The notes beneath the pieces were generated by a model. That model did not search any database and had not been told where the DNA came from. It worked only from the letters and a program-made list of their open reading frames with translations. A program made the position numbers and the translations under genes. Positions 32,800 to 56,482 of a stretch of 64,000 bases of DNA are shown piece after piece. The first letter of the stretch is position 1; each line of letters begins with the position of its first letter. This DNA is from Clostridiales bacterium (GTDB taxonomy: Bacteria; Bacillota; Clostridia; Lachnospirales; Lachnospiraceae): NCBI GenBank assembly GCA_012839295.1, contig DUNO01000015.1, positions 1 through 64,000 on the forward strand. The letters run 5' to 3'.

Positions 32800-32827
32800 T
32801 TTTCGCCCGTCCTTTCTGCTGTAAATT

Positions 32828-34029: not shown

Positions 34030-34048
34030 TCATCGTGGATATTATGCC

Positions 34049-35386: not shown

Positions 35387-35398
35387 GTCTTATCCTCC

Positions 35399-36346: not shown

Positions 36347-36359
36347 CGCTTCACCCCCT

Positions 36360-37868: not shown

Positions 37869-38050
37869 ATGTTCTCCTCCTTTCCTCTGTATTTCATTAT
37901 AGACATCCCCATTCCCCTTCTCTATCAGGGACAGGTCGAAAATTGTTTGCTTTCCGACCACTTTTATTTCGTTGTTGTTTTTCCGATATGATTTTGTTGT
38001 TTTCCTGATATTTCTTTGGCCGGCGGAGGTGGCGAAGGGTCCAACGTAAA

Positions 38051-38084
38051 GGGCACCTTGGAAAACTGACCCTCCAAGGTGCCC
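38051..38084 (-). terminator. Hairpin after the solute-binding protein gene
   Basis: Twelve-base perfect arms (38051-38062 and 38073-38084) lie just after the stop at 38090. The T-run is weak (TTTA), so termination may be partial and allow read-through into the importer operon. Confidence 0.55.
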
Positions 38085-38089
38085 TCATG

Positions 38090-39496: not shown

Positions 39497-39498
39497 GG

Positions 39499-41052
39499 CT
39501 ACGACCCCCTAGTATCTATTGGCCTTTCTCCGGTTAATTTTTTATAGGCCTGGGAAAAATGGCTGAAATTATCATATCCTACCATGGAGGCTATAATGCC
39601 GATTGGTAAGGATGTGGTTTTAAGCAGGACCTGTGCATGGTTCATTTTTTGCTTTAATATATATTCCTTTAATGACAGGCCAACCTCTTTCTTGAATAGC
39701 TTAGAGAGGTAATCCGGGTTCAAATGTACGGATTTCGCCACATCCTCCCTGTGCAGCTCATCCTTGATATGCTCCTGGATGTAGCGCTGCGCATTATGCA
39801 GGACATTTTCCGAGGCCTCGCGGTTGCCCTTGTTGTCCGTTAACGCATCGATAATTCTGTCGATGAGGATTTCCATGGATTCCACTGATTCATATCCATG
39901 ATAATATAGGTCAAAATCCTGGGGCGAGATTAATACCTTTTCCATCAGGTCAATCTCAGCTCCTGCTGCCAGAAAGGACAGCTGCAGGAAGTCGGAATAA
40001 AACCTCTTTAAGACCTCCTTCGTCAGGATCCCGGCTTCAGCCATACCCTCGATATGTTTTTTGGCTTCATATTTTGTCGTCTCCCCGTAGCCCTCTTTTA
40101 ATTGGCTCAGCCATCTGTTCTTATAGATAAACCGGTACTCTGAGCTCTGGTTCGGCTTCTCTAAGAAAATCCCGGAGGAAAGCATCACGTTTTCTTCCCG
40201 CATGCTGCATAGCTCCTGCCAAATATGGGATATCTGGGAGCGCTTTTCTCCCTTGCGTATATAGATGGCCAGCCCAAAGGCACCATACTGCCCGCATACC
40301 GATATAAAGAATTCCATCTGCCTTGAGAGCAGCAATTGGGAAATCAGCTCCTCCGGACTCCAGACAATTGCGGTACAGGTATCCTGGTTACATAATGTCA
40401 CCAGGTAACTCTGCTTATATGCCGCCAGCAATTCTTCACATACATTATCGATGGCAAATACCAGCTCCTCCTCGGTCCAATGCTCCTTTCCCCAGGAAGT
40501 AACATGAAAGGAAACCAGCCAGAAGGGTTGGTTTTTCTCAGGGATCAGCCCCAGGGAATCCAGGAAGCCATAATCATTGCTCTTCCCCTGTAAGATGGAG
40601 AAGAATAATGCCCTCGCAATGGCGATGCTGTTATCACAGATATTTTTCCCGATATCGCTTAAGGAATATAGGATCCGCTCCCTTTTAATGCCCTCTGCCG
40701 CCTTTAACACGGCTTCCCGGATATCCTCATATGCCGCCGGCTGCAGGATGTAATCAATGCTTCCTAATTTTAACGCCTGCTGCGCATAGGAAAATTCCGC
40801 ATGGGCGGTCAGCATGATACAACGGACCGGCAATTCCCTCTGATTAATCCATTCCAGCAAATTAAGCCCGTTCTCATATGGCATCTCAATGTCGCACAGC
40901 ATGATATCGATGCTGTGCATTGTCAAAAACTGCTTCGCTTCAATTGCGCTGTAAGCGCAGAACACCTGGTTGAAGCCATATTTCTTCCATTCAATGGAGT
41001 TGACAATTCCCTCCGCCACACTGACCTGGTCATCTACTACCAACAGATTCAT
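39499..41052 (-). CDS. YesN-like AraC-type response regulator
   Basis: This 517-residue regulator has a receiver domain (1-120) with VVDDQ, the acceptor Asp in DIMLCDIEMPYENGL and MLTAHAEFSYAQQAL. A long middle region of unknown role and a C-terminal AraC domain (about 415-515) follow, with HREDVAKSVHLNPDYLSKLF and SHFSQAYKKLTGERP. The receiver Lys position reads YILQPAAYED, so the usual Lys-Pro is Gln-Pro. The ATG at 41052 has AAGGGGTG upstream. It lies 35 bases after the kinase gene in an operon that starts at the sulfatase. Confidence 0.93.
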   Translation of the reverse strand: MNLLVVDDQVSVAEGIVNSIEWKKYGFNQVFCAYSAIEAKQFLTMHSIDIMLCDIEMPYENGLNLLEWINQRELPVRCIMLTAHAEFSYAQQALKLGSIDYILQPAAYEDIREAVLKAAEGIKRERILYSLSDIGKNICDNSIAIARALFFSILQGKSNDYGFLDSLGLIPEKNQPFWLVSFHVTSWGKEHWTEEELVFAIDNVCEELLAAYKQSYLVTLCNQDTCTAIVWSPEELISQLLLSRQMEFFISVCGQYGAFGLAIYIRKGEKRSQISHIWQELCSMREENVMLSSGIFLEKPNQSSEYRFIYKNRWLSQLKEGYGETTKYEAKKHIEGMAEAGILTKEVLKRFYSDFLQLSFLAAGAEIDLMEKVLISPQDFDLYYHGYESVESMEILIDRIIDALTDNKGNREASENVLHNAQRYIQEHIKDELHREDVAKSVHLNPDYLSKLFKKEVGLSLKEYILKQKMNHAQVLLKTTSLPIGIIASMVGYDNFSHFSQAYKKLTGERPIDTRGS

Positions 41053-41087
41053 CCTAGCACCCCTTCGTGTAAACATACATAACTGGT

Positions 41088-42743
41088 TTAACCATCAATA
41101 GGAAAATATAAATCTACTACAGCCCCGCCCTCATTAAAAAAGCCATAAAAAAATTCATTTTGGTATAGTAATTTGCAACGGTATAAGACATTATTGATTC
41201 CGACATGCTCCGTGGGACCAAACTCCCGGTCTTTTCTGTTTAAAATTTCAAGCATTTCCTGGCTGAACCCATTGCCGTTATCCCGGAAGGTAAGATTGAG
41301 CTTCGTCTTTTGCTCCACCTTGATCTTTCGGGCCGTAACCCCTATTTTCAATGCACCCTCCTTCAAATTGCTGTATTTGATGCTATTTTCTAAAAAGGTG
41401 AGCAGGCTGATGGGGGGAACTAAGAAATCCATCAGCTCCTCCGACACCTCAATGTTCAGGAACACTAAGCGGGAGAAATTGCACCGGTACAGCTCCACGT
41501 AATTGTCAATAAAGGATAATTCATTTCTTAGGTCAATTTTAGCCTCATTGATAGCAAAAATATACCGTAAATGCCTCGATAGAGCCAAGACAGTATTCTT
41601 AATGCTTTCATACCGCTCCTTTTCTGCGAGCGCATACACATTTTTAAGGCAATTCAGGTAGAAATGGAGCCTGATCTGCCCTTGCAAATTCGTCAGCTGG
41701 AGCTTCTGGGCTTTTAATTCATTCTCATACTGCTCAATCTGAAGATGCTTTATTTCCAGCATCATCTTATTAAAGGTTTCACTGAGCTGGATGAACTCCT
41801 CGCATTGCAAATCCTCCCCCGTACCGAATTCCTTCTGACCCTTGCTGATGGCATCCATCGTATCTACCAATTGGTTGACAGGCTGTAGGATGCGGCGGTT
41901 TATCTGCCTCCAGACAAGTACGATGAGTATAATCAACAGGACGGAGCCTAAAATCAAGCCGATAATCCAGACCCTCCCATATTCAAATAATAAGCCATGC
42001 CTTAATTCCAGGCCCATGCGTAACGGCCCCATGGCTTCCCCATAAACCATTGCAGAATTTATGGAGATATTGTTGTTGCTTATGACCTCACCGTCCTCCT
42101 TTTGAAAAAAGAGAAAATAGGGGGAATCCTCATCCGCATGTCCCTCTAAAACCATATCCAAATCAAATACTGCGGTACAATAAACCCCTTCATAGCGCAC
42201 TGTTTTATATAGTAAATACTGTCCGTTCTCCTCTTTGAAGCTCCAGGACTTTCTGCTATACGGCTTTTCCTCTAATGCCTCTGCAAAGCTAGTCCTGACA
42301 CTTTTTATGAATTTCTGCCGCTCCGATTGTGTCATATAGTTCAGGTTGCCATAGCTTAAATATTCCAATTGGTTTGGGGCGCTATAAATTATAATCGCGT
42401 TTAAATTGCTGCATATATCCAGCCGGTTGCTGAATTCCTTCTTAATTGTGCTGACATCATCAAATACCGCGAGCTCGCTTCCCTTGACCCCGAGCCTGTG
42501 GAAGGCGGCGTGGTCAATCTCTAAGGATGCCATATAGGTATCCACCCGTTCTATTTGGGCTTTAAAATCAGTGGCAATCAGCTCTAATTGGCCCACACCC
42601 AGGTTATTGACTTCCTCCCGCAGGCTTAAAATCATGTTAACCCAGAGGATTGTCCACAGGATGATCAGCAAAAAAATTAAAGTCAAGGTAGATTCCTTTA
42701 ACACGAACCTTACTGAGATATTTTCTTTTTTATGAATTAGCAT
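41088..42743 (-). CDS. YesM-like sensor histidine kinase
   Basis: This 551-residue kinase has two membrane helices (LIFLLIILWTILWVNMIL and WIIGLILGSVLLIILIVLVW) around a ~220-residue outer sensor. A HAMP-like linker, a His_kinase domain and an ATPase domain (ENSIKYSNLKEG, FRDNGNGFS, GINNVLYR) follow. The phospho-accepting His is kept but its setting is unusual: LQGQIRLHFYLNCL, where YesM proteins normally have QINPHFLYN. I choose the second of two adjacent ATGs (42743), five bases after AGGAG. It pairs with the regulator at 39499. Confidence 0.9.
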   Translation of the reverse strand: MLIHKKENISVRFVLKESTLTLIFLLIILWTILWVNMILSLREEVNNLGVGQLELIATDFKAQIERVDTYMASLEIDHAAFHRLGVKGSELAVFDDVSTIKKEFSNRLDICSNLNAIIIYSAPNQLEYLSYGNLNYMTQSERQKFIKSVRTSFAEALEEKPYSRKSWSFKEENGQYLLYKTVRYEGVYCTAVFDLDMVLEGHADEDSPYFLFFQKEDGEVISNNNISINSAMVYGEAMGPLRMGLELRHGLLFEYGRVWIIGLILGSVLLIILIVLVWRQINRRILQPVNQLVDTMDAISKGQKEFGTGEDLQCEEFIQLSETFNKMMLEIKHLQIEQYENELKAQKLQLTNLQGQIRLHFYLNCLKNVYALAEKERYESIKNTVLALSRHLRYIFAINEAKIDLRNELSFIDNYVELYRCNFSRLVFLNIEVSEELMDFLVPPISLLTFLENSIKYSNLKEGALKIGVTARKIKVEQKTKLNLTFRDNGNGFSQEMLEILNRKDREFGPTEHVGINNVLYRCKLLYQNEFFYGFFNEGGAVVDLYFPIDG

Positions 42744-42803
42744 CATATCTCCTTTTTCATCCAGAGCTTCCGAGAGTACTCTAGGGCAAGCTGGCAGGCT
42801 TAA

Positions 42804-44411
42804 CTAATTATGTTTTATGGCACGGCAATACTGGATTAATTCAATGAAGCTTACCTTATTTTCTATCATTTTCTTTACCTCTTCTTCCTTTTCCGGCGGC
42901 ACAAGTGATTTTACCCTTGCCCAGGTCATCGCGGGGGTAAACCTTTGGTCCTGTTCAAAGGGGACGATATCAGAAGTGGCCTGCAGCCATTTCAGCAAAT
43001 CCTTTTGCATTTTGAGGACCACAGCATGATAAGCCGGATTATTAATCTCGTTGCTCCGCTCCTGAGGATCCTTTTGCAAATCATAAAGCTCATCCTGTCC
43101 CAGGGTACGGCTGATATATTTATAATCGGTACTCCGTATCATTATGCCCTTTGCATGCGCTTCATCATCGGACTGCGCCTTCATTTTTGGCCAATATACG
43201 ATTTTCTCCGAAACGGTGGATCCGTCATTATTATGGTATTCATCGCAATGGGTTTCTCCTGGCTGGCGTCCGCCTTCACAAAAAACATATTCCTTGCCTG
43301 GCTTCCTCCGGTCCGCAATCACTTCCCTCAGGCTCTTCCCAAAATGCGTATGAGATGGCTTTATTCCGGCGTAATCCATGACGGTCGCATAAAAATCCAC
43401 TAATTCCGCCAGGGAAGAGGTGATTCCCGGATCAGTCTTCTCATTTTTCGGCGGTTTTATTAACAGGGGAACCTTCGTCAGGCATTCCTCAAAGGAATTC
43501 TGCGCCTTCTCGACCAACCCATAATCGCCTGTAAAATCCCCGTGGTCGCTGAGGAAGAATATGGCACAGTCATCGTAGATGCCCGCATCCTTTAATGCCT
43601 GCAGCATCCGTCCAAACTGCTCATCAAGCTTCATGCACATGCCAAGGTATACCGCCCGGAGCTCATCCCAGTCCTCCTCCGAGAACTGATCCATTCCCTG
43701 GTATTTGCGTATTTCGTCTAATATTTTTGCTTTACCGCTGCACTCCTCGGGACGGACTCTCGGCGGGAGCTTGTCCCGGTCAATGGCTGAATAATACGGT
43801 TCCTCCACACCATAAGGTGTATGGGGATACATGAGCCCCAAAAAGAGGCACAATGGCCTGTCATCGGCAGGATGAAGGATGCGGTCGATGGCTGCATCCA
43901 CGATTTCATCGTCCCCATTGTAGTGCTTTCCAGCCTCGTCAAGCTTTAGTCTTCCCTCAAAGTGGGAATAATAATATTTGCTCCCTGGATTTCCCCTTAG
44001 GTTCGGCTGCTCAGGCCCGGGTCCAAGCTTTGCCTGTCCGCCATAATAGATCTCATCCGCATGGGCTTCTGTCCAACCGGGGATCTGGCCTGCCGTTAAA
44101 TCATTGCGGTCATTCATCCATACATAATAGCCGCCGTCATGCAGCTCCTTCAAAAGCGAATCCTCTCCAGGCTGCAGCAGGTACCCCATCGTGCGGTGTC
44201 CCCTCACATGGGGATAAAGGCCGGTGAAAAAGCTGCAGCGGGAAGGAACGCAGACGGGATTCTGGCAATATGCATTAGAAAAAGAAACCGCCTCTTCGCT
44301 GGCAAAACGGTCCAGGTTTGGCGTGATTGCCGCCGGATTCCCCAAATGCCCTAAGGTATCCCCCCTCATTTCATCCGGATTAAAAATTATAATATGTGGC
44401 TTTCTTCCCAT
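42804..44411 (-). CDS. Cys-type sulfatase
   Basis: This 535-residue sulfatase should remove sulfate esters from a glycan or aryl substrate. The maturation motif CVPSR (in NPVCVPSRCSFFTG) is present; the Cys is converted to formylglycine, in anaerobes by a radical-SAM enzyme that is not encoded here. Metal ligands lie in IIIFNPDEMRGD and FFLSDHGDFTGDYGL. No signal peptide is seen, so the sulfated substrate is probably imported first. It is the first gene of the locus, 60 bases before the kinase gene. Together with the importer and GH43 it suggests use of a sulfated oligosaccharide. Confidence 0.92.
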   Translation of the reverse strand: MGRKPHIIIFNPDEMRGDTLGHLGNPAAITPNLDRFASEEAVSFSNAYCQNPVCVPSRCSFFTGLYPHVRGHRTMGYLLQPGEDSLLKELHDGGYYVWMNDRNDLTAGQIPGWTEAHADEIYYGGQAKLGPGPEQPNLRGNPGSKYYYSHFEGRLKLDEAGKHYNGDDEIVDAAIDRILHPADDRPLCLFLGLMYPHTPYGVEEPYYSAIDRDKLPPRVRPEECSGKAKILDEIRKYQGMDQFSEEDWDELRAVYLGMCMKLDEQFGRMLQALKDAGIYDDCAIFFLSDHGDFTGDYGLVEKAQNSFEECLTKVPLLIKPPKNEKTDPGITSSLAELVDFYATVMDYAGIKPSHTHFGKSLREVIADRRKPGKEYVFCEGGRQPGETHCDEYHNNDGSTVSEKIVYWPKMKAQSDDEAHAKGIMIRSTDYKYISRTLGQDELYDLQKDPQERSNEINNPAYHAVVLKMQKDLLKWLQATSDIVPFEQDQRFTPAMTWARVKSLVPPEKEEEVKKMIENKVSFIELIQYCRAIKHN

Positions 44412-44815: not shown

Positions 44816-46066
44816 TTATAACGTCAAGACAGGCAATATAGAGCCCCCGTGCGGAATTAAAATAACTTTCGCATGACTCCCCAATATCTCCAACGCCTGC
44901 TCATAGGCATCCTGTATATCCCCATAGGGTTCGAGGAATATTTTCTTTACAAAATCCGGCTCCAAATCCGATACCAAGAAAACTCTTGAGTTTTGAAGTA
45001 CCATTGCAATGGCTGCTGCCTTATGGCCCCCCAGTTTAAAATCCGCTTTTACTCTTTCTATCAACTCTTCTGATTTCTCCGCTCCTAAAATCCACTCTTC
45101 AAATACTTCTTCGCCTAACCCTTCTTTACAGGAAGCTACAAGTATAATGATACCGCCTTTCTTAACAGCATGCTTGGCATTATCTAATGCTTTCTGCGCC
45201 TGATACATGTTTAGGTCCTTTGGAAATCCTCCGGCACAGGTAATAACGATATCTGCTTTTTCCTTTATCCCTATTTTATAAAAACTATCCAAAAAATTAC
45301 AGCCTTCCCTATGCGCCTCTATATAATGTCCCGCCACCGCATTAATGATCTCCTTTTGCTCATTCAATACCACATTGACGATAAAGTCTATGGGTACAAA
45401 TGGTATTGTCGCTTCAATATCGTTTCTCACCGGGTTCGTATTCAGGTTGCCTGCATGGGCCTTTTCATCCACCATTCTGCTGTGGTTAGCCTGTATTGCA
45501 CCTCTCGTAGATACGCCCGGCATGATGGCTTTCGCACCTCCGCTATACCCTGCAAAATAATGGAATTCTATGTTCCCTACGCATATTCTTCTATCCGCCT
45601 TTGCTACCGGTGTAAATATATCAATGGGCGTTCCATTTTCTGTATAGCCAAAATGCACAAAGTCTTTCATATCACTGTCTATACATTTGATTCTATTGTA
45701 AACACCCTCACCCACCAGATATTTTTTTTCCTCTTCTGTATGGTTTCTATGACAGCCTAAGGCAAATACAATGGTCACATCTTCATCCTTAACCCCAGCC
45801 CCAGTTAATCCCTCCAATATACATGGAATAATAACTTTACTTGGCAGAGGTCTTGTGATATCACTTGTAATGATAACTATTTTTTCTCCCGGCTTTACCA
45901 GGTCTTGCAGTTTTTTTGTCCCTATCGGGTTTTCTAATGCCCTTCTTACTTCCTGGGCACCTGTAAGCTTGACATCCACTTCGTTTGCATGCAGTACACC
46001 TAATAGATTTTGGTCATCAATGGCCACTTTCATGTGCGTTTTGGCAAATTCCAACTTATACTCCAA
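44816..46066 (-). CDS. larA: LarA-family nickel-pincer racemase/epimerase
   Basis: This 416-residue protein belongs to the LarA family, which interconverts alpha-hydroxy acids (lactate, malate and others) using the nickel-pincer nucleotide. Signature parts are FALGCHRNHTEEE (catalytic His region), IEFHYFAGYSGGAKAIMPG (second His and the Lys that tethers the cofactor) and QANHSRMVDEKAHAGNLN. The larBCE cofactor genes are not in the window. It is the last gene of the malic enzyme-GAPDH-PGK-transketolase operon, after a hairpin. Given malic enzyme in the operon, malate or a related hydroxy acid is a plausible substrate; this is inference. Confidence 0.9.
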   Translation of the reverse strand: MEYKLEFAKTHMKVAIDDQNLLGVLHANEVDVKLTGAQEVRRALENPIGTKKLQDLVKPGEKIVIITSDITRPLPSKVIIPCILEGLTGAGVKDEDVTIVFALGCHRNHTEEEKKYLVGEGVYNRIKCIDSDMKDFVHFGYTENGTPIDIFTPVAKADRRICVGNIEFHYFAGYSGGAKAIMPGVSTRGAIQANHSRMVDEKAHAGNLNTNPVRNDIEATIPFVPIDFIVNVVLNEQKEIINAVAGHYIEAHREGCNFLDSFYKIGIKEKADIVITCAGGFPKDLNMYQAQKALDNAKHAVKKGGIIILVASCKEGLGEEVFEEWILGAEKSEELIERVKADFKLGGHKAAAIAMVLQNSRVFLVSDLEPDFVKKIFLEPYGDIQDAYEQALEILGSHAKVILIPHGGSILPVLTL

Positions 46067-46106
46067 TTTTTACCCTCCTTAAAATGATGGTATATAAAGA
46101 AAGAAA

Positions 46107-46134
46107 CCCCGGATTTGATGGATGCAAACCGAGG
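46107..46134 (-). terminator. Hairpin between transketolase and larA
   Basis: Arms at 46107-46117 and 46125-46134 pair over ten bases with one bulge. On the minus strand a pyrimidine-rich GTTTCTTTCTTT follows. It may be a leaky terminator or processing site that lowers larA expression relative to the upstream genes. Confidence 0.45.
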
Positions 46135-46201
46135 CTTTCCTCCTTAAAACAGGCTTATTTGTTCTATCAGTCCTTAATTGCTTATTATTCCTAAATGCGT
46201 G

Positions 46202-47179
46202 TTACCTTTTATTTTTTCTTTCTATTGCTTTTTTAGCCTTAATGACAATCTCTTCTGCTGTTAATTCAAACCTTTCCCTTAAGTAACTTACCGGCCCTAC
46301 TTCTCCAAACAGGTCCTTTACACCTACCCGCTCCAAGGGAACCGGTAGGTTCTCTCCAAGTACTTCTGCTACTGCAGAACCCAAAGCATTGATGATGTTA
46401 TGGTTTTCAGCCGTAACAATTGCACCTGTTTCTTCTGCACTTTTTATAATCAGTTCCTTGTCAATGGGCTTTAAAGTAAACATATTGATGACTCTTGCCG
46501 AAATGCCCTCTTCTGCCAGCTTTTCAGCTGCATCCAAAGCTTCCTTTACCATAATGCCTGTTGAAATGACCGTTACATCCTTGCCTTCTCTTAAGGTCAC
46601 ACCTTTGCCAATCTCAAAGGCGGAACCTTCTTCATATATTTTGACGGCATTCTTTCTTAATAATCTGATATAGAACAGGCCGTACATCCCCGCCGTCTGA
46701 ATCAGTAAATCTTGAAGCATCACCGTATCTGCCGGCTCCAGGATTGTAATATCCGGAATATTGCGCAGTATCCCCAGGTCTTCAAAAGGCATATGGGTGC
46801 CGCCATTGAACGCTGCTGTGATACCTGGGTCACTTCCTACGATCCTCACATTTAGCTTTGAATAACCTACGGATAAAAAGATTTGGTCATAGCATCTTCT
46901 TGAGGCAAAGGGTCCAAAGGTATGGGCAAAAGGGATTAGCCCTGTAGCTGATAACCCTGCTGCAACACCAATCATATTAGCTTCCTGTACACCCACATTA
47001 AAGGTTTTCTCCGGATATTTATTCAAAAAAGGAACCATTCCCATTGAACTCATTAAATCAGAGTCTAAAACAACCACCTTGTCGTCCTCAGACGCTAGCT
47101 TAAGCAGGGTTGCGCAATAGGCATCTCTCATTGCCATTTTCTCAGTTTCATGCTTTTCAGCAATAAGTACTGTGCTCAT
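46202..47179 (-). CDS. Transketolase, C-terminal subunit
   Basis: This 325-residue protein corresponds to the middle and C-terminal transketolase domains. It has the catalytic Glu region (GVQEANMIGVAAGLSATGLI), FAHTFGPFASRRCYDQIF and ITAAFNGGTHMPFEDLGILR. Its ATG overlaps the TGA of the N-terminal subunit gene by four bases, and together they make one two-chain, thiamine-diphosphate-dependent enzyme. The gene follows pgk in an operon with archaeal-type GAPDH. The sugar donor and acceptor are not known. Split transketolases often serve special pathways rather than the main pentose phosphate pathway. Confidence 0.93.
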   Translation of the reverse strand: MSTVLIAEKHETEKMAMRDAYCATLLKLASEDDKVVVLDSDLMSSMGMVPFLNKYPEKTFNVGVQEANMIGVAAGLSATGLIPFAHTFGPFASRRCYDQIFLSVGYSKLNVRIVGSDPGITAAFNGGTHMPFEDLGILRNIPDITILEPADTVMLQDLLIQTAGMYGLFYIRLLRKNAVKIYEEGSAFEIGKGVTLREGKDVTVISTGIMVKEALDAAEKLAEEGISARVINMFTLKPIDKELIIKSAEETGAIVTAENHNIINALGSAVAEVLGENLPVPLERVGVKDLFGEVGPVSYLRERFELTAEEIVIKAKKAIERKNKR

Positions 47180-48024
47180 GCCTCCACCTCCTTGTCCAGC
47201 TCCAGTTGCAGCTCTGCTAAACCTTGTGCCATTTGTTCTTTGCTGATTTCCACATGATGGTTTTTTTCTTTGCCTTCCACGAAGGAAACACCTTTACCCT
47301 TTACGGTATCTAAGACAATCACGGTCGGTTTTCCTTTTTCAAGCTTCGCGGCTTCTATGGCTTCATAGATCTGTACCACGTCACTGCCATCAACGTCTAT
47401 GGCATGCCAGCCGAAGCTTTCAAACTTTGCTTTAAAATCAAGGGTATCGTGGATATTCCTGGTAAATCCGTCCAGTTGCTGCTTGTTGTTATCCACAAAG
47501 GCAATCAAGTTATCTAACTTTCTGGCACCTGCAAAGGATACTGCTTCCCATACCTGTCCTTCCTGGGTTTCTCCATCTCCCAGGATAAGATAGGTATAAT
47601 TATTTTTTTTCTGGTATTTATGCCCCAGGGCTACACCTACAGAGGTAGATGCACCTTGCCCTAAGGAACCTGTTGTCATATCAATGCCGGTTGTCAGGTT
47701 ACGGTCACAATGACTTGGAAAATGGGTGCCCGGTTTATTTAAAGTCAATAATTCTTCCACGGGGAAGTAACCTTTTAACGCAAGAGCTGCATAAATTGCC
47801 GGCCCCGCATGTCCCTTTGAGGATACTAACCAGTCCCTATCTTCCCATTTCGGGTTTTTAGGATCAATTTTCATGGCACCACCATAGAGGACGGCAATCG
47901 TATCTGCTATTGACAAGGCTCCTCCTAAATGCCCAAAGCCCAGGGTTCCCATTGCTCTCACCGTTTCCATCCTAATATTTATGGCAAAAATCTTTAATGC
48001 TTTAATTTTTTCTTGGCTTAACAT
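47176..48024 (-). CDS. Transketolase, N-terminal subunit
   Basis: This 282-residue thiamine-diphosphate-binding half shows GFGHLGGALSIADTIAVLYG, SSKGHAGPAIYAALALKGYF, TGSLGQGASTSVGVALGHKY and the ThDP/metal motif GDGETQEGQVWEAVSFAG...DNNKQQ. AGGAGGTGTC precedes the ATG. It lies 19 bases downstream of the pgk gene and overlaps the C-terminal subunit gene. Proteins of this size with a separate C-terminal chain are the standard split form. Confidence 0.94.
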   Translation of the reverse strand: MLSQEKIKALKIFAINIRMETVRAMGTLGFGHLGGALSIADTIAVLYGGAMKIDPKNPKWEDRDWLVSSKGHAGPAIYAALALKGYFPVEELLTLNKPGTHFPSHCDRNLTTGIDMTTGSLGQGASTSVGVALGHKYQKKNNYTYLILGDGETQEGQVWEAVSFAGARKLDNLIAFVDNNKQQLDGFTRNIHDTLDFKAKFESFGWHAIDVDGSDVVQIYEAIEAAKLEKGKPTVIVLDTVKGKGVSFVEGKEKNHHVEISKEQMAQGLAELQLELDKEVEA

Positions 48025-48043
48025 ATGACACCTCCTAAAAAGG

Positions 48044-49300
48044 TTATTTTCTGCTTGCTTTTTTCATGGCTTTAATCAATGGCATTTCTTCCCCGGATAA
48101 AAACTGTACCATAGCTCCGCCCGCCGTGCATACATAGCCAATATTTTTAATATCTATAAATTTTTGTGCAGCACTGACTGTGTCTCCCCCGCCAATAACA
48201 GAGTAACCCTTTGCTTCTGCAATTGCCTTCCAGATTTCTTTTGTGCCTTTTTCAAAAACCTCTTTTTCATAGACCCCGGCTGGTCCATTGACAAAAATCG
48301 TACCTGCTTTCCTTATTTCTTCTGCAAATACAGCAATTGTTTTAGAGCCAATATCAAACAGTGGCGCTTCAACGGGTAAATCTTTCATGTCAACTTCCCT
48401 TCTCTGTCCATTTTCTTCATAGGCTAAATCTACCGGAAAGATGATTTTGCCTGGATACTTGGTTAGATATGTTTTTGCCGGCTCTATAAACACATCTAAA
48501 GACCGGTCTTTAATGAATTTTTCCGTAGGCTTACTTATACTATATCCACTTGCCATCAGCATGATATTCCCTGTCACCCCGCAGGCTAAGATTTTATCCG
48601 CACTGCCGTTCTCCAGCACCTGCTTCATCATGCCAAAGGCATCAGATATCTTAGCGCCTCCAAGGACAAATATGGAAGGCTTCTCCGGACAAGTCATGAC
48701 TTTTGTCAATGCTGAAAGCTCCTTCATCATAAGCAGCCCGCCTGCCGTAGGCAGTAATTCCTGAAAAGCCACCATAGAAGGTGCATTTCGATGGGCTGCC
48801 GAAAAGGCATCATTTACATAATAATCTACCAAGGGTGCGATGTTTCTAACCAGGTACGTACCCAGCATCTGATCAGGCTCCAGCTTAACAGAATTTTCAA
48901 AGGTAGAAATCTCTTCCGTTAAGTAACGTAAATTACCCAGTAAGACCGCTTCTCCCGGTTCTAAATTCTTGATAGCATCCTGTGCTGCGGGTCCTGCCAC
49001 ATCATCCACATATTGTACCGTTATCCCCAGTTTATCGGAAAGCTTTTTTGCATGTTCCGTCATAGGGATTAAGTTTTCATAATCTAAGGTATCCCCCTGG
49101 TGTGCAATAATAACTAATTTGGCATTTTGGTCTAAAATATATTGAATCGTCGGGATACTCATGTTGATTCTATTTTCACTGACGATTCTTTTCGTTTCCG
49201 GATGAAGCGTAGAGTTAATATCCAGTCTTAATAAAACTGTTTTTCCCCTATAATCAAATGCCTCCATGCCTTTTATTCCAAAATCTACTTCTCCAGCCAT
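48044..49300 (-). CDS. pgk: Archaeal-type phosphoglycerate kinase homologue
   Basis: This 418-residue PGK-family protein is of the archaeal type. It has LLRLDINSTLHPETKRIVSE where bacterial enzymes have VRVDFNVP, and YYVNDAFSAAHRNAPS and FVLGGAKISDAFGMM. Glycine-rich nucleotide loops (GVTGNIMLMA, VIGGGDTVSA) are present. An important change is AHQGDTLD: the family normally has AHQGRP, whose Arg helps bind 3-phosphoglycerate. LLENVRF is also altered to LLGNLRY. The Asp, Asn, His and other Arg positions remain. Activity on a different acyl phosphate is therefore possible. Its start overlaps the GAPDH gene by 16 bases. Confidence 0.9.
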   Translation of the reverse strand: MAGEVDFGIKGMEAFDYRGKTVLLRLDINSTLHPETKRIVSENRINMSIPTIQYILDQNAKLVIIAHQGDTLDYENLIPMTEHAKKLSDKLGITVQYVDDVAGPAAQDAIKNLEPGEAVLLGNLRYLTEEISTFENSVKLEPDQMLGTYLVRNIAPLVDYYVNDAFSAAHRNAPSMVAFQELLPTAGGLLMMKELSALTKVMTCPEKPSIFVLGGAKISDAFGMMKQVLENGSADKILACGVTGNIMLMASGYSISKPTEKFIKDRSLDVFIEPAKTYLTKYPGKIIFPVDLAYEENGQRREVDMKDLPVEAPLFDIGSKTIAVFAEEIRKAGTIFVNGPAGVYEKEVFEKGTKEIWKAIAEAKGYSVIGGGDTVSAAQKFIDIKNIGYVCTAGGAMVQFLSGEEMPLIKAMKKASRK

Positions 49301-50313
49301 TTTCCCATCCCCAAATATGTATTTGTCTTTCCAACTGCTTCTAACCGTTCCGACTGCATGCCTAAAGCTGCACGGATGGCATCCATACTTTCAGGAATAA
49401 CAACCGATTCCTGCGGTATATTAATGGCAAACATGATGTCATTCCCGGACTCTACGACGGAATCCTCCCAAACTGCAATTTCATACATGTCCCCTCTCGG
49501 ATTTCCTAAGTCTCTTGCATATCTAAACAAAGAGGCATTTCCAAGGAAGCCTTCCTCTATGCTGACCACCCTGATTCTTGGATGCTTTCTAAAGGTTTCT
49601 AAAAGCTCTGCTTTATTGGCTTTTCTCTTGGTCGTTGCAACAACTGTTATGATATGACCATGGGTTACAGGTGTATGGACTAAAATACCTGTAGCACTGA
49701 TATGGGGCATGATGGTCATTAAATCCAAGGCCTGGTGGCTTGGTGCCTTGTCAATCTGCAGTGCATTGGTAAGACCTCTATGATAATCCCCCGGATCTGC
49801 AACTCTTCGGATGATTGTGATAGCAACCTTTTCTACTCCCATTTCTCTATCCAGACAATCTACTGCGCGAATTAAGCCTGTTGTATTGCAGGAGGTCAGT
49901 TTTAAGAATTGTTTGCCGATACCCTGCTCAAAGTTAGCATAGCCATGGAAAAATACATCTGCCACGCTGTTTTTCTCACCGCCCTGGAAGACAGCTTTTT
50001 TGTGGTACTTTTGATAGATTTCTTTGTTCTTAGCGCCAACTCCGGCACTTGTTGCGTCTAACATAATGTCTACTTTTTGCACCAAATCCTCTAAAGTGCC
50101 CGAAACTTTAATGCCGGCATCTTCAAAAGCTTTATCATTTCCGGGAATTGCGTTGTAAAGATCATAAGGCATTCCTTTTTCTTTTAAGGCTCTTATTGCA
50201 AGAGTTGGTGAAACATCAGCTACTCCTACAAGCTCCATATCCTTTTGTAAAGCTACACCATCTGCAAGTCTCTGTCCTATTACGCCGTATCCGGCAATAC
50301 CTACTTTTATCAT
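49285..50313 (-). CDS. gap: Type II (archaeal-type) glyceraldehyde-3-phosphate dehydrogenase homologue
   Basis: This 342-residue protein belongs to type II GAPDH, the form found mainly in archaea. It begins MIKVGIAGYGVIGQRLADGV (Rossmann loop) and has FQGGEKNSVADV, the catalytic Cys in LTSCNTTGLIR, RRVADPGD, and LGNPRGDMYEIAVWEDS with NIPQESVVIPESMDAIRA near the end. The expected PSHHG stretch reads PSHQALDL. It would oxidise an aldehyde to an acyl phosphate with NAD(P). GGAGG before the ATG at 50313 sets the start. It is followed directly by the archaeal-type pgk, so the two probably catalyse consecutive steps. Confidence 0.92.
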   Translation of the reverse strand: MIKVGIAGYGVIGQRLADGVALQKDMELVGVADVSPTLAIRALKEKGMPYDLYNAIPGNDKAFEDAGIKVSGTLEDLVQKVDIMLDATSAGVGAKNKEIYQKYHKKAVFQGGEKNSVADVFFHGYANFEQGIGKQFLKLTSCNTTGLIRAVDCLDREMGVEKVAITIIRRVADPGDYHRGLTNALQIDKAPSHQALDLMTIMPHISATGILVHTPVTHGHIITVVATTKRKANKAELLETFRKHPRIRVVSIEEGFLGNASLFRYARDLGNPRGDMYEIAVWEDSVVESGNDIMFAINIPQESVVIPESMDAIRAALGMQSERLEAVGKTNTYLGMGKWLEK

Positions 50314-50407
50314 TTTGAAATCCTCCATTTTTAACAATTGATACGTACTTGCTTCCCGCACTTCTTGAATATATTTTGAGAATATGCCATCTTAACTTTA
50401 TGCTACT

Positions 50408-51637
50408 TTATACTTGGTTTAATAATTGTCTTGTATGCTCTGCTACCCATTCAGGTGTCACATCTTTATTTCTGGCTACGCCGGTTTCAATCGCTGCCCT
50501 TGCCACGGCTTCTGCTACCTTTGGTGCTATTTTTAAATCAAAAGCCGCCGGTATAATGTATTCTTCATGTCTCTCTTCATCGGTGATCAGCCCTGAAATA
50601 GCTTTTGCTGCTGCAACTTTCATTTCTTCATTAATTTCACTTGCCCTTACATCTAAAGCACCCCTAAAGACTCCCGGAAATACCAACACATTATTGATTT
50701 GATTGGGGAAATCCGATCTTCCCGTTCCTATGACTCTTGCACCGCCTAATTTTGCTTGATCCGGCATAATCTCAGGATTTGGATTGGCCATCGCGAGTAC
50801 GATGCTGTCTTTATTCATGGTAGCAACCATTTCTTTTGTAAGACAATTGGCTGAAGATACACCAATAAATATATCTCTGCCTTTAATAATATCTTCCAGT
50901 GTCCCTTTTTCTAATCCCCTATTTGTTACTGTTGCAATTTTTGCCTTTGCAGCATTAAGCGTTTCATCGCCTTCACAAAGAGCACCCCGTTTATCACACA
51001 GGATAATATCTTTTGCTCCGGCCGTCAGCAACAGATTAGCGATGGAAATCCCTGCTGCCCCTGCCCCGTTAATGACTATTTTCACTTGATCCAAGGTTTT
51101 ATTGACCACCTTTAATCCATTGTATAAGCCTGCTAAGGTAACGATTGCCGTACCATGCTGGTCATCATGAAAAATAGGGATATCACAAATTTCTTTTAAT
51201 TTCTCTTCAATTTCAAAGCATTCCGGTGCTTTAATATCTTCCAGGTTAATGCCCCCAAAACCAGGCTCCAGTAATTTTACAACTTCAATAATTTTAGCCG
51301 GATCTTTTGTATCGATACATATGGGGAAGGCATCTACACCGCCAAAGGATTTAAAGAGCACTGCCTTACCTTCCATAACCGGAAGCCCTGCGCCTGCACC
51401 GATATCGCCAAGCCCCAGGACTGCTGTACCATTCGTTACAATGGCTACCCAGTTCCCTTTCGACGTATAGTCATAGATCGTATCATAATCCTTTTCTATC
51501 TCTAAGCAGGGTGCAGCTACCCCCGGTGTATAGGCCAATGTCAAATCTTCTTTGGTTGCTACAGGAACTTTACATTTTAATGTAATTTTACCTTCATAAT
51601 CTTTATGGAACTTTAATGCCCTCTCTTTTAAATCCAT
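50408..51637 (-). CDS. NAD(P)-dependent malic enzyme
   Basis: This 409-residue short bacterial malic enzyme converts malate to pyruvate and CO2. It shows LAYTPGVAAPCLEI, the catalytic Tyr/Lys segments, NGTAVLGLGDIGAGAGLPVM, the metal site NLEDIKAPECFEIE with FHDDQHGTAIV, a Rossmann loop (INGAGAAGISIANLLL) and FPNQINNVLVFPGVFRGALD. It is complete and looks ordinary. It precedes the archaeal-type GAPDH gene and follows the truncated chemoreceptor gene by 25 bases. Its presence beside a LarA homologue suggests that malate or a malate-like acid is an intermediate. Confidence 0.94.
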   Translation of the reverse strand: MDLKERALKFHKDYEGKITLKCKVPVATKEDLTLAYTPGVAAPCLEIEKDYDTIYDYTSKGNWVAIVTNGTAVLGLGDIGAGAGLPVMEGKAVLFKSFGGVDAFPICIDTKDPAKIIEVVKLLEPGFGGINLEDIKAPECFEIEEKLKEICDIPIFHDDQHGTAIVTLAGLYNGLKVVNKTLDQVKIVINGAGAAGISIANLLLTAGAKDIILCDKRGALCEGDETLNAAKAKIATVTNRGLEKGTLEDIIKGRDIFIGVSSANCLTKEMVATMNKDSIVLAMANPNPEIMPDQAKLGGARVIGTGRSDFPNQINNVLVFPGVFRGALDVRASEINEEMKVAAAKAISGLITDEERHEEYIIPAAFDLKIAPKVAEAVARAAIETGVARNKDVTPEWVAEHTRQLLNQV

Positions 51638-51662: not shown

Positions 51663-53324
51663 CTACAATCTAAAGCCTTCTACAATCAGATCCATTTCAG
51701 CTGCAAGTTCATTAAGCTGCATTGCTTCGGCAGTCAATTCTTCCAGGCTGGCTAATTGTTCTTGCACTGCTGCGGAAATACTTTCACTCGATGCTTCATT
51801 TGCAAGAATAATCCCATTGCTTAATTCTGTACTATTGTCCATTTCCCTCATTTTCTGAGTCAGCTTTTGAAGTTCAGCTGAATTTGTGCGCATCTCATGG
51901 TCGACCAGTTCACTGGCCTCTTTAATTTTTTCAAAATATTTTTGCGTTTTGTTAACGATGATATTACCTTTTTCAATTTGAGCCGCATTATCTTGCATCT
52001 GGTCATTCATTTCATTTAATCCTTTTTCAAACTCTTTAATCATTTCCCCGATCCTACTGGAAAAATCCGCAGAATTTGCTGCAAGTTTTCTGATTTCTTC
52101 CGCAACAACTGCAAACCCTTTCCCAGCTTCACCTGCCCTTGCTGCTTCAATTGACGCATTGAGGGAAAGCAAATTGGTTTGGGCCGCGATATCCGTGATG
52201 GCTTGGAGCATATGATTCATCTCCGCTGAGCTTTTGTTGAGCTGCCCGGTCATATGCATGGATAATGCTATTTTCTCACTAATTAAATGCATTTGCTCCA
52301 CAAAATCATGAATATAGTTAGTACCCTTTGTTGCTAATTCAACCGTTCTATGGGCGCTGTCTACGATTTTATGGTCGCTTTGGTCAATTTGCTCTGTAAT
52401 TCGGTAAACCCTTTTAATATGCTCACTATTCTCTTTCGTTTCACGGCCTTGCAATTTAATGCCTTCTACCATTTGTATGACAGATGTAGAAATATCTTCC
52501 CCGGCCTGGCTATTCTGCCCTGCTATTTTTGATAATTGGGTGGAAGCATTATGCACCTGATGGCTGACTTCCCTTATTTTCAACAAGCTCTTTTTAATAT
52601 GATCCACCATTGTATTAAAGGCCATTGCTAAATCCCTGATCTCATCCCGGGTACCGGCCTGCAAGGTTTGTACTGTTAAATCTCCGGATGCTACCTGACC
52701 GGCACTCACGCATACAGCTTTTAATGGTTTGGAAATGTCACTCATTATTTTAGATATCACTAGTAAGGCACTTAGGAACACAAAGCCCAGCAGCATTGAT
52801 GAAACTGTAGCAAAAAAACGTGATTTTCTATCAATCCCATCATTTAAAACCTTTACCTGCTCCAATAAAAAGAACGTATATTTTTGCATGGCTTCCATAG
52901 TAAATCCTACAATTTTTTTAACATTGCTGCATTCGTCAACTGCGTTACCCAGCTGACCCGAATTTCTATATCCTTCTGTCACATTGATACTTTTTTTAAT
53001 GCTTGCCAGAAGTCTTGATGTAGTCTCCAGCATACCAAGACCCTCCTGGTCTGTTGTATTTTCTGTTAATTCACCAAGAATCCCTTCCATTGTCACTATG
53101 TAGGCCATGTAACTTAAATCTCCTGCTGCTTCTCCTTCTAAAACATATTTTCTTAGCTCAGGTTCAATCTGATCGGCTAAAGATATTACTTCGTAAGAAT
53201 CACTGATTTGCCTTAAAACAAGATTATAATCCTGGTTCGTCTGGGCATTAAAGTACATCGTAGACAGGTTCGTGACACCCAATAAAACAATAATCCCAAT
53301 GACAGTTTGACAATTTGCTGCCAA
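51663..53324 (-). CDS. Methyl-accepting chemotaxis protein, N-terminus lost at a deletion junction
   Basis: The open frame encodes 553 residues from a TTG inside the permease gene. A partial first membrane helix ([16 protein letters not shown]) is followed by a helical outer sensor (about 25-165), a second helix ([20 protein letters not shown]), HAMP, and a signalling domain with [20 protein letters not shown]. The natural start and the beginning of the first helix are missing. Homology to a normal receptor starts only at about base 53305, where permease homology stops. Membrane insertion may still work from the remaining helix. It lies just upstream of malic enzyme, suggesting chemotaxis to the substrate of this operon. 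Confidence 0.85.
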
Positions 53325-54235
53325 TAGGAGCTAACATTCATTAAATTGAGCAGATTATTAATAACACCAATAATCATTGCACCTAATAATGTACCTACAA
53401 CCGTGCCCGTACCACCGCTCAAGCTCGTGCCTCCTACAACTACGGCCGTAATTGCATCGAACTCATAAGAAACAGCACCGCCAGGCTGGCCCGAATTAAT
53501 TCTGGACATAAATACGATGCCTGCCACAGCCGTTAGGATACCATTGAAAATAAATGCTAATAGCACAACCTTCTTTGTGTTAATTCCTGATGCCTGGGCT
53601 GCCCTTTCATTACCGCCTACCGCATAAATTTGCCTGCCAAACTTTGTTTTATTGAGTAGAACCCAGGAAATCGCCATAAACAATAATAATATGATAACCG
53701 AAATCGGAACGGGCCCAATGGAATCCTGGCCAATCACCTTAAAATTTCCCAGCCCTGATATTGTCCTGCCTCCGGTGTACAGTAATATTGTGCCTCTTGC
53801 AATTGTTGTCATAGCCAAGGTCATGATAAATGCCGGAATATTAAATTTTGTAATTATGTACCCATTAGCGAAACCAACCACTATCCCCAGCGCAAGCCCT
53901 CCAAGAACTGCTACAAATATGTTTTGGGTATAGTGCATAATACTTGCAGCCATCGTACCTGTCAATGCAACTACAGAGCCCAGTGACACATCAATATGGC
54001 CCAGGATAATAACAAAGGTAACGCCAAATGCCAGCAAGCTGACGACCACCAATTGTTTTAATACGTTTACCAAGTTTGCACCCGTTAAAAATACCGGATC
54101 AATAAGTGAAGCTATAATAAATATCCCGATAAAAATCAATATCGTTCCATACTTACTGTAAACACCTGCAAATCCCATACCCTTAATATGGCTTATAAAA
54201 TCATTTCCGCTTTTGCTTGAATCACTTTTACTCAT
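53213..54235 (-). CDS. RbsC-like sugar ABC permease with a replaced C-terminus
   Basis: This 340-residue permease of the ribose/inositol type has intact helices and the [20 protein letters not shown] loop and [19 protein letters not shown] segment. RbsC proteins normally continue after [11 protein letters not shown] with a last hydrophobic helix and a short tail. Here homology stops at that point, and the frame runs into out-of-frame chemoreceptor sequence ([17 protein letters not shown]...). The final helix is therefore replaced by about 36 unrelated residues. It overlaps the ATPase gene stop by eight bases, with GGGAGG before the ATG. No binding-protein gene follows it. Confidence 0.88.
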
Positions 54236-55763
54236 TTAATTTGCCTCCCGTAGCTAGTGTCATTATCTTTTCTTGGGTAAATTCTTCCCTTCTCAATTCT
54301 CCTTTAATGCGCCCCTCTTGCATTATCACAACCCGGTCACTCATTCCTAATATTTCTGGCAATTCAGAGGAAATCATAATAACTGCCAGGCCACTTTTCG
54401 TGAATTTAGACATCAGCTTATGAATTTCTGATTTCGATCCCACATCAATACCTCTCGTTGGTTCATCCAGCATAAGTACATTCAGTTCACCAAGCAACCA
54501 TTTTGCAATAACTACTTTTTGTTGGTTACCGCCACTTAGGCTGCTCGCTTTTGTGAACATTGTAGGGACTTTCACCTGAAGCATTTCTATCATCCGCTGG
54601 GCTTCTGTTTTTTCTTCGTTACCCTTGATCAGCAATCCAGGCGCAAATTTCCTCAGGTTTGCCAATGAAATATTTTCGAGCACTGATCTGCAAAGAATCA
54701 AGCCTTCATCCTTTCTGTCCTCTGAAATCATAGCAATTCCATTTTTGATGGCATCTTCTGTTTTCGTAATTTTAACCAGCTTGCCATTCAGATATATTTC
54801 CCCGCTGTCTATAGGATCAAGTCCAAAAATCGCCCTAACAACTTCTGTCCTTCCGGCTCCGACCAATCCGGATATCCCAAGGATTTCCCCTCTCCTTACA
54901 TTGAAGCTGATATCTTTGAAGACACCCTCCCGTGTTAGATTTTTAACTTCAAGTACAATTTCTCCTATTTCAGCTTCTTCTTTTGGAAAAATATTAGAGA
55001 TAGTTCGGCCAACCATCAATGACACCAATTTGTTATGATCGTATTCACTTGCTTTATTCGAGTCAATGTATTGCCCATCTCGAATAATTGTAATATCGTC
55101 TGCTATTTTAAATATCTCATCCATCTTATGGGTAATATAAATAATAGCTACGCCTTTCTTCTTCAAATATCCTATCTGTTCGAACAGCATATCAACCTCA
55201 GTATCTGTCAATGCTGATGTTGGTTCATCCATAATGATCAGTTCTGCCTGCCTTGAAATTGCTTTTGTTATTTCAATGAGCTGCATACCTGCCACACTGA
55301 GTTCTTTCATTTTCATGTGCGGGTCATATTTCAAGCCTAAAGTATCAAGAAGCTCCTGTGTTTGTTTGTATAGCACTTTGAAATTAATAAATCTTTTACC
55401 CAAAAACGAAGTTTCACTATAAGTTGGCTCCCTATCCAAAAAAATATTTTCAGCAATTGTCATCTCAAGAACAGGACTCAGTTCCTGATGAATCATTGCT
55501 ATGCCAGCATTTAATGCCGATCTCGCATCCTTATTTTCTAATCTTTCACCCTTAAAGAATATTTCTCCTTCATCAATCTCGTACTCACCGCTTAACACCT
55601 TCATTAATGTTGATTTACCCGCGCCATTTTCACCGCACAGCACATGGACGCTGCCTCCCCTAACCTTTAGGTTCACTTTGTCCAAAGCCAATACTCCGGG
55701 AAATGCCTTTGTTATTGCTTTCATTTCCAGAACATACTCAAGCTTTTCAATCGATTTAAGCAT
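54228..55763 (-). CDS. RbsA-like sugar ABC ATPase
   Basis: This 511-residue protein has two ABC domains. The first has Walker A GENGAGKST, the signature ELSVAGMQLIEITKA (diverged) and Walker B LIIMDEPTSAL. The second has GLVGAGRTE, SLSGGNQQKVVIAKW and LMLDEPTRGID. The start region (MKAITKAFPGVLALDKVNLK) is typical of monosaccharide importers for ribose, xylose or inositol. GGAGG nine bases before the ATG at 55763. It is the first gene of the long operon, 16 bases downstream of a broken LacI gene. An inositol-like substrate is suggested by the neighbouring dehydrogenase. Confidence 0.94.
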   Translation of the reverse strand: MLKSIEKLEYVLEMKAITKAFPGVLALDKVNLKVRGGSVHVLCGENGAGKSTLMKVLSGEYEIDEGEIFFKGERLENKDARSALNAGIAMIHQELSPVLEMTIAENIFLDREPTYSETSFLGKRFINFKVLYKQTQELLDTLGLKYDPHMKMKELSVAGMQLIEITKAISRQAELIIMDEPTSALTDTEVDMLFEQIGYLKKKGVAIIYITHKMDEIFKIADDITIIRDGQYIDSNKASEYDHNKLVSLMVGRTISNIFPKEEAEIGEIVLEVKNLTREGVFKDISFNVRRGEILGISGLVGAGRTEVVRAIFGLDPIDSGEIYLNGKLVKITKTEDAIKNGIAMISEDRKDEGLILCRSVLENISLANLRKFAPGLLIKGNEEKTEAQRMIEMLQVKVPTMFTKASSLSGGNQQKVVIAKWLLGELNVLMLDEPTRGIDVGSKSEIHKLMSKFTKSGLAVIMISSELPEILGMSDRVVIMQEGRIKGELRREEFTQEKIMTLATGGKLNE

Positions 55764-56020: not shown

Positions 56021-56266
56021 ACGAGCTCGTGTCTCTTTTTGTAATCCCTATTCTACACCATTTTTTTCTTGGTGTCAACATTTATTACTAAATTCTTTTC
56101 CCGATTAATAATTTTATTAGTCATTATATACAGTACTAATCAATGAGACATCATTAACTCTAAATAAAAGCCCTATTTTCAGGCTTTTTTTATGAATAAT
56201 TATATCTTAATTTATAAGTTACAATCCAATAAATCACCTGTATATCCAATAAGAGCCCATGCTCGT
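56021..56266. promoter_or_regulatory. Candidate LacI-type operators near the importer operon
   Basis: ACGAGCTCGT at 56021-56030 is a perfect palindrome. GAGCCCATGCTC at 56253-56264, followed by GT, is a near-palindrome with the same GCTCGT half. A third copy lies in the dehydrogenase promoter. LacI-family repressors bind such CG-centred palindromes; linking these sites to the repressor at 57825 is inference. Confidence 0.45.
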
Positions 56267-56419
56267 TATTTTTTTAACGTTATTATGTTTCTATTTTATT
56301 ATATATTTAATAAGCAAAAAAATAATGTAATATTCAACAAATGGTAGCGTTATTTCTTTAACAAACAAGTCATTATTACTTTTATAATCTTTTAAATATC
56401 CAAAATAAGCAACATTCTA

Positions 56420-56482
56420 TTGACAGATATTCTAGCAAGGGTTATAATCTGTATATATTCTACGATTACGTGCTCGTGATTG
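56420..56482 (+). promoter_or_regulatory. Consensus sigma-A promoter with overlapping operator
   Basis: TTGACA (56420-56425) and TATAAT (56443-56448) are both perfect and separated by 17 bases. ACGATTACGTGCTCGTGAT (56462-56480) starts about where transcription should begin and contains the GCTCGT half-site, as expected for a repressor that blocks a strong promoter. It drives the dehydrogenase gene at 56603. Confidence 0.8.

Follow-up and report, generated by a model that had tools for sequence, protein, structure and literature searches.

Archaeal-type GAPDH and PGK genes in a clostridial operon: a candidate alternative lower half of inositol breakdown

Introduction

Why would a member of the Clostridia carry archaeal-type glyceraldehyde-3-phosphate dehydrogenase (GAPDH) and phosphoglycerate kinase (PGK) in one operon with a split transketolase, a malate racemase and a malic enzyme? 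We address this question for a stretch of 64,000 nucleotides from a Clostridiales bacterium of the family Lachnospiraceae (assembly GCA_012839295.1, contig DUNO01000015.1, positions 1 to 64,000), here called the window, where the genes lie on the minus strand at 44816-51637. An earlier reading of the bare letters (the original prediction) outlined a route in which transketolase releases an aldehyde, GAPDH and PGK oxidise it with a gain of ATP, and a LarA-type enzyme and malic enzyme lead on to pyruvate. That outline agrees with the comparative genomics reported here; the part it lacked is the inositol pathway, which it did not identify. We put the probability at about 0.74 that the cluster is an alternative lower half of inositol breakdown, with transketolase cleaving a sugar acid so that malate, pyruvate and ATP are formed. 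We infer all of the substrates and reactions of this pathway from what was observed, namely the gene content, the linkage with inositol (iol) genes, the lack of a recognised kinase IolC in most carriers tested, a separate ordinary PGK, a changed ligand position in the operon PGK and shared operator-like sites.

Enzymes of the operon

Malic enzyme, type II GAPDH, PGK, both transketolase halves and a LarAH6-family malate racemase form one minus-strand operon, and all six genes (malE, gap, pgk, the two tkt halves and larA) are full-length open frames. The malic enzyme (50408-51637; PF00390/PF03949) is 71% identical to the corresponding protein in the operon of Lucifera butyrica (locus L044) and is proposed to convert L-malate to pyruvate and CO2. 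The GAPDH (49285-50361) scores above the cut-offs of NF003251 (424.9 bits; cut-off 185) and TIGR01546 (317.3 bits; cut-off 232.9) and is 86% identical to its Lucifera counterpart. Its translation probably begins at the ATG at 50313, which would give a protein beginning MIKVG that matches relatives, and its proposed role is that of a phosphorylating malic semialdehyde dehydrogenase. The PGK (48044-49300; PF00162, 362.8 bits) is a putative malyl-phosphate kinase yielding D-malate and ATP. The closest solved chain is 2cun (E 1.2e-83), presumably a Pyrococcus enzyme. These family scores and this nearest structure bear out the archaeal type that had been assigned to the pair.

The N-terminal transketolase half (47176-48024; PF00456) and the C-terminal half (46202-47179; PF02779/PF02780) are 74% and 77% identical to those of Lucifera, and the top solved match of the C half is 6yaj, the C-terminal chain of the split transketolase of Carboxydothermus hydrogenoformans (E 2.3e-84). 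The larA product (44816-46066) belongs to the nickel-dependent LarAH6 family (NF052593, 579.9 bits; cut-off 500), has the malate racemase Mar2 as its top solved match (6d6z, E 5.8e-121) and is proposed to convert D-malate to L-malate. Its GHK motif is present, with GGHKAA in the window aligned to GAHKAA in 6d6z; LarAH6 enzymes are described as measured malate racemases in which the lysine of this motif contacts the second carboxylate (PMC7583248). The nickel cofactor gene larC is also found in the window genome (PF01969, 441.3 bits, contig C9). The close linkage and overlaps noted in the original prediction are present, gap and pgk sharing 16 nt and the transketolase halves 4 nt. In 25 full clusters from relatives, described below, the gap-pgk overlap is 16 nt in 11 and 10 nt in another 11, and differs in L101, L110 and L121.

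Linkage with inositol genes and scarcity of recognised IolC

A profile of nine GAPDHs run against genome contigs gave 468 hits, of which the best 80 loci were kept for the counts that follow. Open frames were compared in 88 loci (these 80 and eight further ones, with two genomes in both sets), and genes were counted at identity thresholds (for iolD, at least 50%). The presence counts are lower bounds because many loci are cut by contig ends. Among the 80 loci, pgk is present in 79, iolD in 42, iolE in 41, iolG in 35, both transketolase halves in 34, iolB in 33, a LarAH6-like larA in 32 and malE in 20. The co-occurrence that the original prediction suggested looking for is found: gap, pgk, both transketolase halves, larA and iolD stand together on one strand in 25 of the 80 loci, and 13 of these have malE as well. 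The 25 fullest clusters include Clostridium, Caloramator, Fonticella, Lucifera, Carboxydocella, Desulfosporosinus and Anaerolineae (Flexilinea, Leptolinea), and many Spirochaetes have gap-pgk with iolG, iolB, iolD, iolE and a diverged larA. Loci with iolD thus span Clostridia, Anaerolineae and Spirochaetes. The neighbours score as inositol enzymes, with IolD at 983 and 1003 bits (cut-off 715), IolG at 495 (cut-off 355) and IolE at 442 (cut-off 290; a second IolE protein, at 217, falls below). In five loci (L035, L048, L049, L050 and L073) a phosphofructokinase-like gene follows larA. Two other loci (L058 and L100) have a KduI/IolB-family gene before gap-pgk and a malic enzyme after it, together with an Asp/Glu-racemase-family gene in L058 and an aldehyde ferredoxin oxidoreductase in L100.

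The kinase of the canonical pathway, IolC, is distributed differently. In a draw of 398 genomes from the phylum, IolC passes its cut-off in all 15 genomes with iolD in which no type II GAPDH does so, and in neither of the two that have both. It is over cut-off in three of 29 cluster genomes. Twenty-one of the 29 have iolD in the cluster (Clostridium magnum by way of a second cluster, L048) and IolC is found in two of the 21, those of L051 and L101. The best IolC match in the window genome has 177.4 bits, under the cut-off of 300. Most carriers should therefore make 2-deoxy-5-keto-D-gluconate (DKG) and have no recognised kinase for it, with the transketolase-GAPDH-PGK-malate set apparently standing in its place. 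Further sugar kinases from the IolC superfamily score below cut-off in cluster genomes, so a DKG kinase could have escaped recognition in carriers; some of these genomes are also incomplete. The gut bacterium Megamonas funiformis is reported to express a set of genes given as iolB, iolD, iolE, iolG and iolI, without iolC (PMC12130570), which makes it a possible candidate for this route.

The operon GAPDH and PGK are most probably not the glycolytic pair

The simplest alternative is relocated glycolysis, in which the operon GAPDH and PGK would be the cell's own glycolytic enzymes. Both proteins fall in families named for glycolytic enzymes, and the GAPDH keeps the SCNTT active-site motif. The original prediction had proposed a check for ordinary gap and pgk elsewhere in the genome, and such a pair is there: PF00162 and PF02800 each match two genes, the operon copy and an ordinary copy, with the ordinary pair at 70680-72554 of contig C14, about 20 kb from the operon. 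An ordinary PGK also accompanies the type II PGK in 33 of 34 cluster genomes tested. On these grounds we rejected relocated glycolysis. The linkage of the operon genes with iol and malate genes and the altered phosphate-ligand position of the PGK also argue against it, and we regard it as very unlikely. The exception among the 34 genomes, G484, has only the type II PGK and could be a glycolytic case or an incomplete assembly.

Nine loci (L093, L094, L096, L097, L111, L112, L115, L118 and L122), from Christensenella-like and other uncultured Clostridia, have type II gap-pgk without iol, larA or malE neighbours. We considered them as glycolytic controls and they failed as such, because an ordinary PGK is present in eight of the nine genomes (all except that of L097, which is G484) and because their PGKs carry the same Asp described next.

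In PGK, Arg65, Arg122 and Arg170 are described as ligands of the 3-phosphate, and Asp23 and Asn25 as ligands of the 2-oxygen (PMC7729029). We aligned 88 rows (the window and 87 loci, with two genomes counted twice). At the position of Arg65, type II PGKs have Asp in 76 rows, Ser in 6, Gly in 5 and Asn in 1; no row has Arg or Lys. The window residue is Asp70, aligned with Arg65 of pig PGK, and the ordinary PGK of the same genome has Lys there. Asp23, Asn25, His62 and Arg38 are invariant in all 88 rows. In GAPDH, four solved archaeal chains agree at 23 positions where 95% or more of 87 bacterial sequences differ. In window numbering the changes from archaeal to bacterial include His194 to Gln, Leu218-Met219 to His-Gly beside a conserved histidine that we take to be catalytic, and Lys33 to Asp, which would be expected to favour NAD over NADP. 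In a GAPDH tree the 87 bacterial sequences form a clade of their own (with weak support, 0.507), and after rooting the four archaeal chains were not recovered as one group. The changes in both enzymes fit a changed substrate without proving it. Loci without iol genes share the GAPDH and PGK changes as well.

Proposed pathway

In relatives, IolG, IolE, IolD and IolB would convert myo-inositol to DKG. By our own Fischer derivation, DKG should be D-threo next to its keto group and D-xylulose-like at both carbinol carbons, so transketolase could act on it without prior phosphorylation. The split transketolase would take the C5-C6 hydroxyacetyl unit of unphosphorylated DKG and hand it to an aldose phosphate acceptor, and the sugar phosphate formed could return through the pentose phosphate pathway. 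Cleavage would release (R)-malic semialdehyde (3-hydroxy-4-oxobutanoate, OHC-CH(OH)-CH2-COO-), which has the D-glyceraldehyde configuration and is glyceraldehyde-3-phosphate with a carboxylate in place of the phosphate ester. Type II GAPDH would then form malyl phosphate from the semialdehyde, NAD and phosphate; PGK would yield D-malate and ATP; LarA would racemise D-malate to L-malate; and malic enzyme would produce pyruvate, CO2 and reduced cofactor. Transketolase chemistry on DKG would explain the presence of GAPDH/PGK, malate racemase and malic enzyme together, and the position of the cluster within the inositol operon of relatives points to DKG, malic semialdehyde and malate as the compounds involved. 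The passage from malic semialdehyde through D-malate to pyruvate is described as established in L-carnitine breakdown, with other enzymes (PMC11353897).

That precedent raises the alternative that carnitine or a related compound, and not a ketose, is the source of the malic semialdehyde, as carnitine cleavage yields the same semialdehyde (PMC11353897). The transketolase, the sugar-type transporter and the IolG-like gene of the unit argue otherwise, and there is no carnitine enzyme among the scanned proteins of the unit, the remaining genome not having been searched for such genes. We give this source the least credence of all the alternatives. A second alternative keeps the transketolase and changes its substrate to a uronate-type ketose such as D-fructuronate, so that tartrate semialdehyde and tartrate would replace the malate compounds. 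Such a route would fit an organism that has no iolB, iolD or iolE, and malate racemases are reported also to epimerise tartrate, weakly (PMC11770544). Five loci without iolD (L039, L040, L060, L064 and L069) have xylose-isomerase-fold proteins (of IolO type in L069) and creatininase-family proteins; the genes that accompany gap-pgk there are epimerase-like, creatininase or aldehyde ferredoxin oxidoreductase genes. The window genes, by contrast, are closest to those of the Lucifera operon, which has iolB and iolD (the 86%, 74% and 77% identities given above for gap, tktN and tktC), and the window and Lucifera GAPDHs are sisters in the tree with a support of 0.994. The LarA passes the cut-off for malate racemases, and the operon includes a malic enzyme. 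We consider the sugar-acid variant improbable.

Several observations weigh against a lower half of inositol breakdown. The IolB proteins of relatives, at 104 and 98 bits, are below the family cut-off of 205 and form a diverged subfamily. At the thresholds used, 25 of the 80 loci have none of iolB, iolD, iolE, tktN, larA and malE (a diverged larA is present at seven of them: L060, L064, L065, L083, L107, L113 and L114), and the PGKs of these 25 partner-less loci carry the same altered residue at the Arg65 position, so that this substitution is not specific to inositol loci. Arg122 and Arg170 are retained in 85 of the 88 PGK rows (the other three have a gap), and the solved PGK 2cun already has Lys rather than Arg at position 65. 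No pair of transketolase halves was found in the stretch examined at 12 of the 42 iolD loci, mostly from Spirochaetes. Type II GAPDH is over cut-off in nine of the 398 genomes of the phylum draw, and iolD is present in only two of these nine. At three loci genes of E1/E2/E3 type replace the transketolase. In the window genome itself the best IolD match has 249.9 bits (cut-off 715) and the best IolE match 91.9 bits (cut-off 290), and IolB was not matched by an 11-row profile in a search that had no control genome.

The E1/E2/E3-type dehydrogenase complex genes lie beside gap, pgk, larA and malE at L047:885-6060, L038:10625-15340 and L037:9761-11591. L037 is cut by its contig; E1/E2-like genes also occur at L089, at a greater distance. 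C. magnum has both an E1/E2/E3 cluster (L047) and the inositol cluster (L048). A complex of this kind, we speculate, could split the same ketose into glycolyl-CoA and malic semialdehyde. More broadly, we would give even odds to the idea that GAPDH and PGK were recruited outside glycolysis as a portable, ATP-gaining cassette that would lead from semialdehyde through D-malate and L-malate to pyruvate in anaerobes of several phyla with varied front ends; these may be transketolase acting on DKG or, in some genomes, E1/E2/E3.

The window organism

Because the enzyme genes of the window are open and iolB, iolD and iolE were not found in this genome (97.9% complete), two readings arise: either the module receives DKG or a related keto acid from another source, or it is part of a partly decayed inositol operon. 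The window has no counterpart of the iolB and iolD that Lucifera has between tktC and larA, or of a 315-amino-acid gene that lies there between rbsC and malE. Nine weak IolE-like (xylose isomerase-fold) matches at 6696-73215 of contig C48 suggest a large sugar-isomerase cluster there. In a set of 61 genomes made up of the window genome and relatives, of which only 35 reach 90% completeness with no more than 5% contamination, type II GAPDH was found at E 1e-40 in the window genome alone; 33 of the relatives belong to its genus. Together with the sister relationship of the window and Lucifera GAPDHs, the absence from the 33 same-genus genomes suggests horizontal transfer.

If the operon is a decayed remnant, it would have lost iolB, iolD and its binding protein, and the pathway would no longer work in this organism. 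The pieces missing relative to Lucifera (iolB-iolD, the 315-amino-acid gene and the end of rbsC) fit this, as does a chemotaxis gene without its 5' end at the place of the 315-amino-acid gene. The absence of the GAPDH from the 33 same-genus genomes, many of them incomplete, also fits. The full-length frames of all six enzyme genes and the presence of promoter-like and operator-like sites speak against decay, which we hold to be possible and, on balance, doubtful. Decay in this one organism can be compatible with an inositol role for the family as a whole.

The operon is larger than the original prediction stated. It starts with a ribose-type ATP-binding cassette (ABC) transporter at 53213-55763, and the minus-strand run extends from the rbsA-like gene to larA. 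The first gene, rbsA-like, encodes a ribose/xylose-type ABC ATPase (54228-55763; 75% identity to L. butyrica) and is followed by a ribose-type permease gene, rbsC-like (53213-54235), whose DNA likeness to Lucifera rbsC ends 72 nt before the gene end. The methyl-accepting chemotaxis gene (51663-53324, minus strand) begins inside the end of rbsC, apparently without its 5' end, and occupies the place held in the Lucifera operon by the 315-amino-acid, solute-binding-protein-like gene. Divergent from the operon is a gene for an oxidoreductase resembling IolG-type inositol 2-dehydrogenase (56603-57610, plus strand; 51% identity to the gene at the same place in Lucifera), which scores below the cut-offs of both NF052679 (473.6 bits; cut-off 540) and TIGR04380 (192.7 bits; cut-off 355). 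Beyond it lies a LacI-family regulator (57825-58991, minus strand; PF00356 and PF13407), 62% identical to that of Lucifera.

Promoter-like sites precede both the operon and the IolG-like gene. TTGACA-17-TAGAAT at 56078-56050 (minus strand; 11 of 12 consensus bases) lies before rbsA, and TTGACA-17-TATAAT at 56420-56448 (plus strand; a perfect consensus) lies before the IolG-like gene; across the whole region such sites are no commoner than in shuffles. An operator-like palindrome directly follows each, at 56021-56034 for the operon and at 56462-56481 (one or more) for the IolG-like gene, and a third is at 56251-56266 (coordinates on the plus strand). The palindromes are of the type ACGAGCNCGTGNTC. 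All six matches to this pattern in the 64 kb, at three sites, fall within 56021-56481, between the IolG-like gene and rbsA. The shuffled window gave a mean of 1.58 matches and six were reached in 0 of 100 shuffles, a figure that is optimistic because the pattern was picked by eye from the same sequences. In L. butyrica all eight matches, at four sites, precede lacI and rbsA. A longer operator pattern derived from Lucifera had one match in the window, with one mismatch, and at least one match also in 18 of 100 shuffles. RNA folding of the gap between tktC and larA is unremarkable (z -1.47). A separate cluster at 31399-44411 with a sulfatase, parts of a ribose-type ABC transporter, a GH43 glycosidase and a sensor kinase, seen by eye only, perhaps serves uptake of a sulfated glycan.

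Discussion

Gene linkage and the missing kinase support an alternative, so far undescribed lower half of inositol catabolism, and as a proposal from genome comparison we consider it well supported. No such pathway was found among the best matches from the open-licence literature, in keeping with the original prediction, which knew of none; this does not prove its absence from print. The same literature gave nothing usable on the growth of carriers on inositol. If the proposal is correct, LarAH6 malate racemases would have a suggested in vivo role, a point left open in earlier work on these enzymes (PMC7583248). Inositol catabolism would have a second lower half, which avoids the ATP cost of IolC and yields one ATP by substrate-level phosphorylation; its carriers would be anaerobes from three phyla or more (Clostridia-type Firmicutes, Chloroflexi and Spirochaetes). 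The GAPDH/PGK couple would then offer a clear example of redirection to a carboxylate analogue of its substrate, and the automatic annotation of these genes as glycolytic would need correcting.

Among known systems, the sulfoglycolytic transketolase (sulfo-TK) pathway resembles the present cluster in using a split transketolase on a ketose with an acidic group that replaces the phosphate. It differs in its partners, the recognised ones here being iol genes; sulfoquinovose genes were not searched for. The inositol pathway of Thermotoga maritima uses IolM, IolN and IolO. IolO-like and creatininase-family proteins occur at some of our variant loci, and there are none among the scanned proteins of the window unit.

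With the canonical inositol pathway IolG-E-D-B-C-J, as described for Anaerostipes rhamnosivorans among others (PMC8355322), the relatives share the first four steps to DKG. The canonical route continues with a kinase, an aldolase and malonic semialdehyde (3-oxopropionate), whereas transketolase, GAPDH, PGK, malate racemase and malic enzyme would take over here, and 19 of the 21 cluster genomes with iolD lack IolC over cut-off. L-carnitine breakdown has the route from malic semialdehyde through D-malate to pyruvate in common with our proposal. According to the source cited above, it uses an NAD(P)-dependent aldehyde dehydrogenase and D-malate dehydrogenase, whereas the clusters here would gain ATP by way of an acyl phosphate and then use a racemase and malic enzyme. 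Finally, the archaeal glycolytic type II enzymes (GAPDH 2czc, 1cf2, 2yyy and 1b7g; PGK 2cun) are of the same protein families as those here. The 87 bacterial GAPDHs stand apart from the archaeal chains by their 23 class-specific residues, Asp for Lys33 among them, and where 2cun has Lys at the Arg65 position, the type II PGKs of these clusters have no basic residue.

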